Source of the DNA: Acidobacteriota bacterium
GTDB taxonomy: Bacteria; Acidobacteriota; Blastocatellia; Pyrinomonadales; Pyrinomonadaceae
Direction of reading: 5' to 3'
DNA: 64,000 nt
Assembly (NCBI GenBank): GCA_020199775.1
Contig: JAIVJZ010000007.1
Span: forward strand, 1 to 64,000
How positions within the stretch are numbered: the stretch's first letter is position 1; each line of letters starts with the position of its first letter. A program made the position numbers and the translations under genes. Positions 18,168 to 23,279 of the stretch are shown piece by piece. The notes beneath the pieces are model-generated. The model did not search any database and was not told where the DNA came from. It saw only the letters and a list, made by a program, of their open reading frames with translations.

Positions 18168-18932
18168 ATGACTCATCAATTGCAGCCGAACTTCGATCAC
18201 GTCATTGACGCCGTGAAATCGGATGTCGAAGGAAGCGTTGCCGCAGGTTCAAACGTGGATGCGACGGTAGACTCGCGAATCACTTACCCCTGTTATAAAT
18301 CGTTCGACGATTTCATCGATGTGGAAAGGTTGAAGTCGCTGGACGGATACATCAGCGAGAGAATAAAACAGCACATTCAGGCTCAAAAAGATATTCAATT
18401 CTACACCGGCCCATTCAGGTTAAAGGACGCCGGCCCAGACAGGCCGGGTTCGAGAATGATCTATCTGGCCCAGTCCAAGATGCCCGACAGTTATTTCGAT
18501 CTTGATCAGACGGAGCTTTGGGAACCCACTCCCGAGGCGAGCGAGTTTTACTGGCTGATGGATTTCATCGAGAGCTTGCCCTTCAAGGCGACGGGGCGGA
18601 TGTTGATCATGTATGACGATGTGGCGCGACCGGTCACGCCTCACAGGGATCACACGAGTACGGACACGTGCCATGAATTTATCTGGTTTCGCACCAACAT
18701 GAATAAGCCGTTCTACATGTTCAACCATGAAACCAATGAGAAGAAGTACGTCGAATCATACAGCGCATGGTTCGATACGGTGAACCAGTTTCACGGAACT
18801 GACGCGGGCACGGGACTGACTTTCAGCATCCGGGTTGATGGAATTTTTACGGACGAATTCAGGAAGCGCATTCCAATTCCCGCGCATAATCTCGCCGCGA
18901 CGCCCGCCCTCTGGGCTGGCGTCTCAGGCTGA
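18168..18932 (+). CDS. Fe(II)/2-oxoglutarate-type oxygenase of unassigned family
   Basis: This 254-residue protein shows the elements of a double-stranded beta-helix oxygenase. HRDH supplies His159 and Asp161, QFHGTD supplies His209, and Arg222 in SIRVDG is placed to bind 2-oxoglutarate. The surroundings (GRMLIMYDDVARPVTPHRDH, ACWF-like turns) resemble aspartyl/asparaginyl hydroxylase-like folds, but the exact family is not recognised. The start is ATG 18168; GGGGGAGAGAAG precedes it. There is no signal peptide. It converges with a TauD-type oxygenase gene and lies upstream of an ATP-grasp/decarboxylase fusion, which suggests hydroxylation of an amino acid or peptide made by this cluster. Confidence 0.75.
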   Translation: MTHQLQPNFDHVIDAVKSDVEGSVAAGSNVDATVDSRITYPCYKSFDDFIDVERLKSLDGYISERIKQHIQAQKDIQFYTGPFRLKDAGPDRPGSRMIYLAQSKMPDSYFDLDQTELWEPTPEASEFYWLMDFIESLPFKATGRMLIMYDDVARPVTPHRDHTSTDTCHEFIWFRTNMNKPFYMFNHETNEKKYVESYSAWFDTVNQFHGTDAGTGLTFSIRVDGIFTDEFRKRIPIPAHNLAATPALWAGVSG

Positions 18933-18963
18933 CGAGCAGCAGTAAATTTACGAGTCGGTCAAC

Positions 18964-20308: not shown

Positions 20309-22612
20309 ATGAAAATCTACATCAGCGGGCTATACAGCGGAACCAATCCGCAGCCCGGTATCGGCATCGCGCGCTCGTTACGTGCGGCATATCCAGACGC
20401 CACTCTGGTCGGCGTCGAATATTCCAATCGTTGTTCGGGCATACATTGGGCTGACTTGGACGAGATGTGGCTGCAAAGGCCGTGGGAAGAGTTGAACCTC
20501 GAAGTATACGCGGCCGACATCAAGGAGGCTCTGGATGCGGGCGCGCTCTGGATTTCGGGCGTTGATCTGGAAATCATGTGGCTCGCGTCGGTCTTCCCGG
20601 AGGGGCATAAAAACTTGCTGACCCCTTCCACCGCCGCTTTAAAAAAGATCAGCAAACCCGCCGTCGAGGCGCACAAGGGTTTGCCCGTCAGCATCCCCCC
20701 GTTCGTCACGACCGAACGCTCCGACTGGGAACTGCACGCCTTTTGTCGCCAGCATGGTTGGAAGGTATGGCTCAAAGGGCCTTACTACGAAGCGGTACGC
20801 ACGCACGGCTGGGACGTGTTTGATAGAGTCCGCACGCTCCTGTCGCGCGCATGGTCAACCGAGCGTCTGTTTCTCCAAACTCACGTCACGGGCTACGAAG
20901 AATCGGTCTGCTTCAGCGCGTATCAGGGCGAACTGATCGACTCCGTCTACATGCGTAAACGCGAACTTACCGAAGAGGGTAAGACGTGGGCGGGCGACGT
21001 TACGGAAGTGCCCGAAGAGTTCACCACGCCGCTGCGCCGGATAATCAAAGAGTTGAACTGGACGGGCGGCGCGGAGTTGGAGATGGTGCGGGATATGGGC
21101 GGGCAGTTGTGGCTGCTGGAATGTAACCCGCGATTCCCGGCGTGGATTTACGGCTCGACTCTCGCCGGACACAATTTGCCCGCGCTGTTGGTGGAGCGGG
21201 CGACGGGTGTTCCGGCGCGACGAGAGGTGAATGTTTGCGAAGAGTTCACACGCGTGGTTTTGGAAATCCCGGTGCGCTCGCAGTTCCCTCTGCCGAGCTT
21301 GCCGGAACCTTACCCCGGCGGCATCGGGCATTCCATGAAGCACCCTTCGGGCACGCTGGCTCTGGCGGAGCGTCTGCACAAACTGCACGTCATGGAAAGC
21401 GATGGTAACGGCAACGGCAACGGCAACGGCAACGGCAACGGTCATCACGGCCGCACGAACATTGCGGAAGCTCCCGTCGTGCCTTCTTCCTTCATCGACG
21501 ATCTGAAAGCCTACAACTTCGCGGAGATGGAAACGCCTTCGTGGTTGTTTCTCGAAAGCACCGCCTCGGAGCTTTTCAAACGCGCCGCCGGTCTGGCGAG
21601 CAAACTGAGCACCTCCACGCTGACGGTCACGAATGCATATAGTCTCAAGACCAATCCTGATGAAAGACTTCTCAGGATCGCCAGAGAGTCCGGCTTTTTA
21701 GCCGAGGCCATCAGTCTGCTGGAAGTTCAAAAGGCTCTCCAAACCGGCTTCAGACCCGATCAGGTGATCCTGAACGGCCCCGGCAAATGGTGGCCTGAAG
21801 GACTCTTGCCTACCTCGCCCATCCATGCCGTCTTCTGTGATTCAATCGCCGACTTGAAACGTGTGGTCGCGAGCATGGAGAGAAAAGAGCTACAGGCGAA
21901 GATTGTCGGGGTGCGTTTGCGGACGCCGACCGTCGGTTCACGTTTCGGGATTCCGGTGGACACGCCCGAAGCTTTGAAGAAGCTTGTTGACGCGATTGAG
22001 TTGTTGCCCCGCGAGTGCGCCTTCGGCGTTCACTTCCACATGGCGAGCAGCAACATCGGCGTCGGGCAGTGGTGGCATCTCTACGAATCGGTGCTCAGGT
22101 GGTGTCGCTCGATAGAGACGCTGGCGCGGCGGCAGATCGAATGTCTGGACGTTGGCGGCGGCTGGTTCCCGGACGATTGGCAAAGCGACTCCGGCGATCA
22201 GTTTGCCGCCGCCATCGCGCGCGCGCGCAATTTCCTGCCCTTCGTCAAGCAGATCATTTCCGAACCCGGCAAAGCGATGGCGCAGCCCTCGATGGCCGTG
22301 GCGATGCGCCTGCTTGAGTTCGAGGAGTCGTCTGAAGAAGAGGTGACGGAAGCGGTCGTGGACGGCTCGATTGCCGAACTGCCGATGCACTTTTTTCAGC
22401 CGCACCGGATTCTGCGTCAGGACAAGCAGACCGGGGAGTGGCAGACCTTGAAACACGGGAAGACGCATCTCTGGGGCAGACTTTGTATGGAACATGACGT
22501 GGTGGCGTCGAACGTCGAGTTGCCGGAGGGCGTGCGCCCCGGCGACGTTCTGGTTTTCTGTGACGCGGGAGCTTACGATAGGAGTATGTCTTATGTCTTT
22601 GGCCGAGGGTAA
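20309..22612 (+). CDS. ATP-grasp ligase fused to fold-III PLP amino-acid decarboxylase
   Basis: This 767-residue two-domain protein starts at ATG 20309 after AAAGGAA. Residues 1-310 form an ATP-grasp enzyme with a pre-ATP-grasp domain, KVWLKGPYY, a GGAELEM strand and the metal-binding end LLECNPRFPAW (270-279). A (Gly-Asn)n linker covers about residues 366-378. Residues 395-767 are a fold-III PLP decarboxylase of the ornithine/diaminopimelate group. Lys447 (AYSLKTNP) should hold PLP, with HFHMAS, DVGGGWF, SEPGK and the second-site GRLCMEHD (Cys726) and AGAYDRSM (Tyr756) all present. ATP-grasp domains activate carboxylates as acyl phosphates to form amide bonds. The fusion would couple amide formation with decarboxylation. 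Substrates are unknown. Confidence 0.9.
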   Translation: MKIYISGLYSGTNPQPGIGIARSLRAAYPDATLVGVEYSNRCSGIHWADLDEMWLQRPWEELNLEVYAADIKEALDAGALWISGVDLEIMWLASVFPEGHKNLLTPSTAALKKISKPAVEAHKGLPVSIPPFVTTERSDWELHAFCRQHGWKVWLKGPYYEAVRTHGWDVFDRVRTLLSRAWSTERLFLQTHVTGYEESVCFSAYQGELIDSVYMRKRELTEEGKTWAGDVTEVPEEFTTPLRRIIKELNWTGGAELEMVRDMGGQLWLLECNPRFPAWIYGSTLAGHNLPALLVERATGVPARREVNVCEEFTRVVLEIPVRSQFPLPSLPEPYPGGIGHSMKHPSGTLALAERLHKLHVMESDGNGNGNGNGNGNGHHGRTNIAEAPVVPSSFIDDLKAYNFAEMETPSWLFLESTASELFKRAAGLASKLSTSTLTVTNAYSLKTNPDERLLRIARESGFLAEAISLLEVQKALQTGFRPDQVILNGPGKWWPEGLLPTSPIHAVFCDSIADLKRVVASMERKELQAKIVGVRLRTPTVGSRFGIPVDTPEALKKLVDAIELLPRECAFGVHFHMASSNIGVGQWWHLYESVLRWCRSIETLARRQIECLDVGGGWFPDDWQSDSGDQFAAAIARARNFLPFVKQIISEPGKAMAQPSMAVAMRLLEFEESSEEEVTEAVVDGSIAELPMHFFQPHRILRQDKQTGEWQTLKHGKTHLWGRLCMEHDVVASNVELPEGVRPGDVLVFCDAGAYDRSMSYVFGRG
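21403..21441. repeat. GGCAAC microsatellite encoding a Gly-Asn linker
   Basis: About six units of GGCAAC lie in phase within the fusion gene and encode the flexible Gly-Asn hinge between the ATP-grasp and decarboxylase domains. Hexanucleotide slippage would lengthen or shorten the hinge without a frameshift. Confidence 0.85.
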
Positions 22613-23279
22613 GATCGAATTTGACGAGACGGATTTCGCGGACACCCGCGCGGCGATGCAAAAGTGGGAACACTTCCCTGCATCTACGATTTCACATCAC
22701 GGCGGGCAGTGCTGCCAGATCGCGCGCGAGTGGGTTCTCTCGACGGACTACTCGCAACTGAATGCGGGCAACCCGCTCACGGGGCCGCGCTGGATACGCC
22801 AGAAATACACCTGGGGGGCTTCCACGTGGCCGATCTACTGGTGCGAAGCCGTCGAGCAAAAGAAGCTCGACTGCGGCGCGCTGGCCGCGCTCACGCAGGA
22901 AGTTTTCGCCGCGCGCGGCGTGAGAAGCTATCACGCGCAGTTTATCCAGCAGTACAGCGAGGCTGCCACCCGCCAGTGGTCTAACAGCTGGAACTGCGAT
23001 GAGGCATGCGTCCACTGGATCAAGGAAGATTTGATTTATCACGAAGGCTGCGCGGTAGCCGTGCGTGATAACGAGATCAGGCTTTGGGACCCGAGCGCCG
23101 GGTGGTGGGTCAACCCGCGGCAATTCGGTGGCTACGGCGGCCTGCTCGCCGTGCGCGTGTTCGCGCCTCAGTTTAATGCCCCGACCGGATTTCTCTGGGG
23201 CACGCAGCGCATCAGCCCGAACCAGTGGCAGAAAATAGAGAGAGTGCGCGGAGATTTTGCCGTCGCGGCTGCGAAGTGA
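22593..23279 (+). CDS. Transglutaminase-like / papain-fold cysteine protein
   Basis: This 228-residue protein starts at ATG 22593, 20 bases inside the upstream decarboxylase frame, with GGAG in front, so the two are translationally coupled. The pattern KLDCGALAALTQEVFAARGV (Cys94), LIYHEGCAVAV (His150) and IRLWDPSAGWW (Asp166) matches the Cys-His-Asp triad and spacing of transglutaminase-like proteins. These cleave, form or exchange amide bonds through a thioester. There is no signal peptide or membrane segment. The tight coupling to the ATP-grasp/decarboxylase protein suggests it acts on the same intermediate or peptide. The family is inferred from motifs only. Confidence 0.72.
   Translation: MSLAEGKIEFDETDFADTRAAMQKWEHFPASTISHHGGQCCQIAREWVLSTDYSQLNAGNPLTGPRWIRQKYTWGASTWPIYWCEAVEQKKLDCGALAALTQEVFAARGVRSYHAQFIQQYSEAATRQWSNSWNCDEACVHWIKEDLIYHEGCAVAVRDNEIRLWDPSAGWWVNPRQFGGYGGLLAVRVFAPQFNAPTGFLWGTQRISPNQWQKIERVRGDFAVAAAK

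Follow-up and report, generated by a model that had tools for sequence, protein, structure and literature searches.

A bioactive pseudopeptide-amine can be made by just four enzymes, namely an oxygenase, an ATP-grasp ligase, a pyridoxal 5'-phosphate (PLP)-dependent decarboxylase and a second enzyme of amide formation, as the E-64 clusters cp1/cp2 show; these are fungal and have cyanobacterial relatives (PMC12568646). This four-gene set is free of nonribosomal peptide synthetases (NRPS); its second amide enzyme belongs to the ANL family, its ATP-grasp ligase and decarboxylase are unfused, and FlvG served as the beacon by which its decarboxylase was located (PMC12568646). A comparable logic of ATP-grasp ligase, fold-III decarboxylase, oxygenase and papain-like acyltransferase underlies the 4-amino-2-hydroxybutyrate (AHBA) side chain of butirosin, although its enzymes (BtrJ, BtrK, BtrO, BtrH and BtrG) act on the carrier protein BtrI, use a flavin oxygenase and contain no fusion. 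Closthioamide assembly by CtaG, CtaJ and CtaF also combines a decarboxylase-derived amine with transglutaminase-type or papain-like amide formation, but on a carrier-protein-based thioamide route that has neither a fusion nor an Fe/2-oxoglutarate (2OG) oxygenase (PMC6772006). Here, we describe a gene cassette from a 64,000-nucleotide stretch of an Acidobacteriota bacterium of the Pyrinomonadaceae (the window; positions 1 to 64,000 of contig JAIVJZ010000007.1, assembly GCA_020199775.1). It consists of oxyA, encoding a putative Fe(II)/2OG oxygenase, an ATP-grasp/decarboxylase fusion gene and a gene for a transglutaminase-like (TG-like) protein, with a TauD-type oxygenase gene as a fourth neighbour (Table 1). 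By comparison of gene content, the cassette belongs to neither the E-64 nor the butirosin type, because no ANL-family gene was found in it or in the scanned neighbours, and no acyl-carrier protein gene lies between its genes (the rest of the genome was not searched for one); yet it resembles both in outline. The E-64 set differs further in having no OxyA pair, and BtrH and BtrG belong to families other than that of the TG-like protein.

The cassette is proposed to encode an NRPS-independent pathway to a hydroxylated, decarboxylated small amide (a pseudopeptide-amine), a reading to which we give about an even chance. The ATP-grasp domain would activate a carboxylate as an acyl phosphate and ligate it with an amine that probably belongs to an amino or diamino acid, after which the fused PLP domain would strip the alpha-carboxylate from the conjugate, leaving an amine. 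Hydroxylation or another oxidation of the acid or the amine part would fall to OxyA, of which there are one or two copies, joined in some genomes by TauD. The translationally coupled TG-like protein would then form an acyl-enzyme at Cys-94 and pass the acyl group either to a second amine, creating a second amide bond, or to water, releasing the product. Judged by analogy, this order (ligation, decarboxylation of the conjugate, oxidation, acyl transfer or release) appears the most economical. The data extend as far as the enzyme classes; the reaction types are those expected of the families, the substrates and the direction of the TG-like reaction are suggested by analogy, and the product class we infer. 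The pathway is supported by gene content, synteny, motif conservation, a structure model of OxyA, a weaker one of the TG-like protein, a conserved gene overlap and purifying selection; the last is concluded for all four genes because their substitutions fall mostly at third codon positions.

An earlier note on this DNA, made from the letters alone, had named four neighbouring genes as a candidate undescribed pathway, with no NRPS, polyketide synthase (PKS) or visible precursor peptide. All four open reading frames (ORFs) are indeed present, and no NRPS, PKS, carrier protein or precursor peptide was seen in the cassette. No paper describing this gene set was found in the full-text literature searched, and as far as that literature goes the set is undescribed. 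The note had also set beforehand the test of synteny in other genomes. Nine loci with the fusion came from a genome-contig scan, and whole-genome searches added further ones; spread outside Acidobacteriota, covered by that one scan, is under-sampled. The genes oxyA, fusion and TG lie on one contig in 13 loci including the window (in L023 and L038 a gene is cut by the contig end), and the cassette loci span several Pyrinomonadaceae genera as well as alphaproteobacterial metagenome-assembled genomes (MAGs). Further loci, cut by contig ends, would fit this layout as well (L024 with L056, L052 with L089, L055 with L090, L025 and L057). The flanks vary by locus and include an OPT transporter, a histidine kinase, radical SAM proteins, a SET domain and putative lipoproteins; conserved extra neighbours were therefore rejected. 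Since at least 13 loci share the gene set while their flanks differ, the clustering is more than chance, and the outcome that the note had named as refuting the pathway, genes not found together in any other genome, did not occur.

The note had seen that two of the genes overlap. These are the fusion and TG genes, with 20 nt in common in the window and in all 11 related loci examined (acidobacterial and alphaproteobacterial), which suggests translational coupling. At locus L022, all genes overlap (by 4, 4 and 20 nt), so neither a precursor peptide nor a carrier protein could fit inside the operon. Outside it, a search for a precursor of a ribosomally synthesized and post-translationally modified peptide (RiPP) revealed no recurring neighbour among ORFs of at least 70 aa, shorter ones not having been systematically compared.

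Distribution of the cassette is patchy. Of 119 Pyrinomonadaceae genomes, 17 carry the fusion, as do 7 of the 69 of good quality and 7 of 29 genera (the tool's tally), and the nearest relatives of the window cassette are from Pyrinomonadaceae, in agreement with the acidobacterial origin that the note had assumed. It was also found in two alphaproteobacterial MAGs, on high-GC contigs (0.65-0.68) with ordinary flanking genes. This suggests acquisition by transfer, with misbinning of the MAGs as another possibility; no further relative within the order Sphingomonadales was found among 151 genomes. Spread by phage was rejected, no cassette relative being present in phage records or viral contigs, and spread by plasmid likewise, the single plasmid match being in Streptomyces.

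In the fusion, the ATP-grasp domain matches PF15632 (ATPgrasp_Ter) with an E-value of 6.5e-9 (36.1 bits against a gathering cut-off of 29.1), and its ECNPRF motif is represented by ExNPR in all homologues, as expected of an ATP-grasp ligase. The second domain matches PF02784 (Orn_Arg_deC_N; 2.9e-16) and PF00278 (Orn_DAP_Arg_deC; 1.2e-7). It has the hallmarks of a fold-III PLP decarboxylase: the PLP lysine (YSLKTNP), HxHxxS (HFHMASS), the GGG loop (GGGWFP), the EPG motif (EPGK), the CxxxD loop (CMEHD) and, in addition, AYDRSMSY. The motifs of both domains are invariant in the homologue alignment. The linker between the domains is encoded by a GGCAAC-type repeat and varies in length among homologues. 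A distant, unfused ATP-grasp and decarboxylase pair (G190, L031) was rejected as a full relative, since it has no TG or OxyA homologue nearby.

The best PDB match of the decarboxylase domain is FslC/FigC, the N-citrylornithine decarboxylase of rhizoferrin biosynthesis (7kh2), which shares the CM-x-HD loop; that enzyme, however, stands alone, and its ligase is an NRPS-independent siderophore (NIS) synthetase, not an ATP-grasp enzyme. Against the FslC model NF041039 the domain scores 53.5 bits (cut-off 500) and against the DapDC model TIGR01048 88.8 bits (cut-off 297.9); it is thus related to both families but a member of neither. The Cys loop reads CMEHD in the fusion, compared with CMQHD in FigC, CESGD in DapDC, CNGSD in ornithine decarboxylase (ODC) and CTPED in BtrK. 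In FigC, docking predicts that His357 of this loop contacts the citryl group, the acyl part of the conjugated substrate (PMC7857480). Conjugated amino acids are likewise decarboxylated by its relatives SbnH, AcsE, MccE and BtrK (PMC7857480). This suggests that the fusion decarboxylase may also act on a conjugated amino acid. Because of the FigC-like CMEHD loop and these conjugate-decarboxylating relatives, it is proposed to use the product of the fused ligase.

OxyA has no Pfam or NCBIfam family match; a Pfam scan of 16 homologues at E-values up to 10 gave no consistent match, and a PDB sequence search with the family gave chance-level matches only. A double-stranded beta-helix (DSBH) fold is nevertheless well supported by the AlphaFold model (predicted local distance difference test, pLDDT, 77), in which the proposed ligands H159/D161, H209 and R222, invariant in the 16 homologues, lie on the expected strands. 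Foldseek returned 88 PDB fold matches at E<=0.001, the top ones being 2OG hydroxylases; the best was 7v4f (E 8.8e-7), and PHD2, cis-P4H and AspH were also matched. With this fold, the HxD...H ligands and a 2OG-binding Arg, OxyA has the features of an Fe(II)/2OG oxygenase. Eight genomes contain two oxyA copies, L022 and L026 being examples of the two-copy version. In a tree, a canonical set separates from a second, mostly single clade, with support of 98/96 when the L020 copy is left out and weak support elsewhere. The two copies at L028 (9139-10767) are nearly identical C-terminally and divergent before that, which looks like gene conversion. Among 396 sampled genomes of the phylum, the OxyA profile was found in cassette carriers only, except for a distant pair in G349, of another acidobacterial family (L106, minus strand, 8109-9815 and 11211-12155). 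This pair was rejected as a cassette relative, as no fusion or TG match was found there, in a high-GC context that is poorly resolved. Its neighbourhood also contains an ORF that by eye resembles a glutathionylspermidine-synthase-type ATP-grasp protein.

The TG-like protein also has no Pfam or NCBIfam family match. A Pfam scan of 10 members at E-values up to 10 gave no consistent match, to the transglutaminase families included, and a PDB sequence search with the family gave matches at chance level only. Within the 396 genomes its profile was confined to cassette carriers. C94, H150, D166 and the HHGxxCC and WC motifs are invariant in the family alignment. In an AlphaFold model built from eight sequences (pLDDT 79.6), C94 starts helix 94-107, H150 lies on strand 147-158 and D166 on the adjacent strand 161-166, a topology that corresponds to the transglutaminase arrangement and weakly suggests such a fold. 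The invariant H35, H36, C40, C41 and C84 are not accounted for by a transglutaminase and might form a metal or structural site. In one alphaproteobacterial MAG (L024, 1605-2345), the TG gene seems frameshifted, with two frames matching, through sequencing error or decay. Overall, the enzyme classes named in the earlier note are backed by profile, motif or structure-model evidence, if least firmly for the TG fold, and the catalytic residues that it had listed as present are invariant in the family alignments.

That note had also treated the four genes as a unit. This stands for oxyA, fusion and TG, which recur together, and not for the TauD gene, which is linked in a subset only and is optional. 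The TauD protein is a member of the TauD/TfdA family (PF02668, 1.6e-35; 123.7 bits against a cut-off of 27). Its closest solved relatives, 1y0z and 9yut, belong to the At3g21360/TauD-TfdA clade; in the cassette, the gene is an accessory with a putative oxygenase role. Relatives are present in 28 of the 119 Pyrinomonadaceae genomes; the six genomes that hold those of at least 51% identity all carry the cassette (hypergeometric p about 4e-6, for a threshold picked after the list was seen), and the idea that TauD is unrelated to the cassette was therefore rejected. That it is a core gene was rejected too, since only the window, L019 and L028 have TauD and the complete cassette on one contig; in two more loci (L089 and L090, at least 51% identity) it adjoins oxyA, divergently, at contig ends, and at L091, a TauD gene of the same similarity is located at the contig start. 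By these comparisons, TauD is a linked accessory of the cassette. The window's genome (G000) carries five further TauD-family genes, 39-43% identical to that of the cassette, on contigs C68, C9 and C64, three of them close together on C68.

A distant relative was found on a plasmid of Streptomyces zaomyceticus. The plasmid carries a fusion gene of full length (34.7% identity, 100% coverage), and the gene after it, which overlaps it by ATGA, specifies a TG homologue of 195 aa. The alignment of this homologue to the TG family spans 156 columns (hhalign probability 99.4; tblastn E 4e-12), and HHGxxCC and the Cys, His and Asp of the triad are retained. The next gene encodes a fatty-acid-desaturase-type protein, and no OxyA homologue was found on the plasmid. 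Fusion and TG thus form the most widely shared core, and it is the oxidizing enzyme that varies.

Several observations weigh against the proposed pathway. The Streptomyces fusion has CMEND in place of the CMEHD loop, and at L054 the stretch of about 7.7 kb upstream of its fusion gene contains no oxyA. By sequence search the ATP-grasp domain has no PDB relative. Foldseek matches of the TG-like model are mostly transglutaminase or papain-like, at weak E-values (best transglutaminase-type, 0.017). Further, the cassette has no conserved gene for export, regulation or self-resistance nearby, which is unusual for a secreted antibiotic.

Among other explanations, the one closest to E-64 biosynthesis is unlikely but fares best. 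The decarboxylase would act on a free amino acid to give a polyamine of the putrescine, cadaverine or agmatine type, the oxygenase would build the acid block, the ATP-grasp domain would make an acyl-amino acid and the TG-like protein would couple the amine. The gene content of the fungal cluster is nearly the same (PMC12568646), but the decarboxylase domain is nearest to a conjugate decarboxylase, not to ODC or arginine decarboxylase, being fused to the ligase it would more readily receive a conjugate by channelling, and the cassette has no ANL amide synthetase. Tagging systems, too, can contain ATP-grasp and transglutaminase domains, and the OxyA fold resembles the protein hydroxylases PHD2 and AspH. 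The ligase might thus tag a protein, tRNA or RiPP with an amino acid or amine, the decarboxylase and oxygenase might alter the tag and the TG-like protein might remove or cross-link it. We consider this distinctly improbable, as no precursor peptide or conserved target gene was seen beside the cassette (among ORFs of at least 70 aa outside the operon), the flanks differ, and occurrence in so few genomes of the family speaks against a conserved cellular target. Very little probability is given to a butirosin-like route, in which an amino acid would be decarboxylated and hydroxylated on a carrier protein encoded elsewhere and moved by the TG-like protein to a scaffold. It would follow the chemistry of BtrJ, BtrK, oxygenase and BtrH in the same order (in part PMC2922099), and BtrK is among the structures closest to the decarboxylase domain; however, the Cys loops differ (CMEHD vs CTPED), the cassette has no carrier gene and the overlapping L022 genes leave no space for one. 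A housekeeping amine, compatible solute or siderophore-like conjugate is hardly probable, for although FigC-type decarboxylases serve siderophore assembly (PMC7857480) and the absence of export or resistance genes fits an intracellular solute, no TonB or siderophore-transport gene is conserved beside the cassette in the loci scanned and its presence within the family is patchy.

With respect to gene calls, the GGAGAGAAG motif precedes the oxyA start, the fusion N-terminus is MKIYISGLYSG or a near variant across the aligned homologues, and the 261-aa TG reading frame open from 22494 is too long, the conserved start being 22593. Pfam annotation of the neighbourhood covered a selection of the genes located from about 2 to 42 kb in the window. 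Elsewhere in the window, an ADOP-type permease ORF (13436-14530) of 364 aa, against an 803-position model, looks truncated or frameshifted, and a 361-aa protein without a Pfam match (10784-12693, minus strand) adjoins a ParA-type ATPase gene.

Table 1. Features of the cassette, in window coordinates
Feature	Position	Strand	Basis
oxyA, Fe(II)/2OG oxygenase without Pfam family, 254 aa	18168-18932	+	Fold model and invariant ligand residues
OxyA proposed metal/2OG ligands H159-x-D161; H209; R222	18642-18650; 18792-18794; 18831-18833	+	Family alignment
TauD/TfdA-family Fe(II)/2OG oxygenase, 320 aa, accessory gene	18964-19926	-	PF02668; relatives in cassette-positive genomes
Fusion ORF	Open from 20276; conserved start 20309; stop 22612	+	Homologue alignment
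ATP-grasp ligase domain of fusion	20309-21406	+	PF15632; KGPYYE lysine, ELEMVRD...LLECNPRFPAW (Mg/ATP motif)
Asn-Gly repeat linker joining the two fusion domains	21407-21445	+	Sequence and homologue alignment
Fold-III (alanine-racemase fold) PLP decarboxylase domain of fusion	21476-22612	+	PF02784, PF00278, invariant motifs
Lysine of YSLKTNP in decarboxylase domain	21647-21649	+	
AGGAG motif and ATG of TG gene within last codons of fusion	22579-22612	+	Conserved in window and 11 related loci examined
TG-like protein without Pfam family, 228 aa	22593-23279	+	Invariant residues, AlphaFold model
TG-like predicted triad C94; H150; D166	22872-22874; 23040-23042; 23088-23090	+	Alignment, model

The cassette may represent a new, widely transferred class of minimal cluster, common to acidobacteria, alphaproteobacteria and streptomycetes, in which a ligase-decarboxylase fusion, a new TG-like amide enzyme with a conserved His/Cys site and a new 2OG oxygenase family make a class of natural product not yet known; we advance this tentatively, as possible rather than probable. 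Its genes offer handles for genome mining that cluster finders based on NRPS and PKS would miss, and two enzyme families that neither Pfam nor NCBIfam lists, together with a natural amide ligase-decarboxylase fusion, would be useful biocatalysts. A carrier-free cassette of three to four genes is small enough to be expressed whole, so that its product could be found directly. The chemistry of Acidobacteriota, which abound in soil, is little known.

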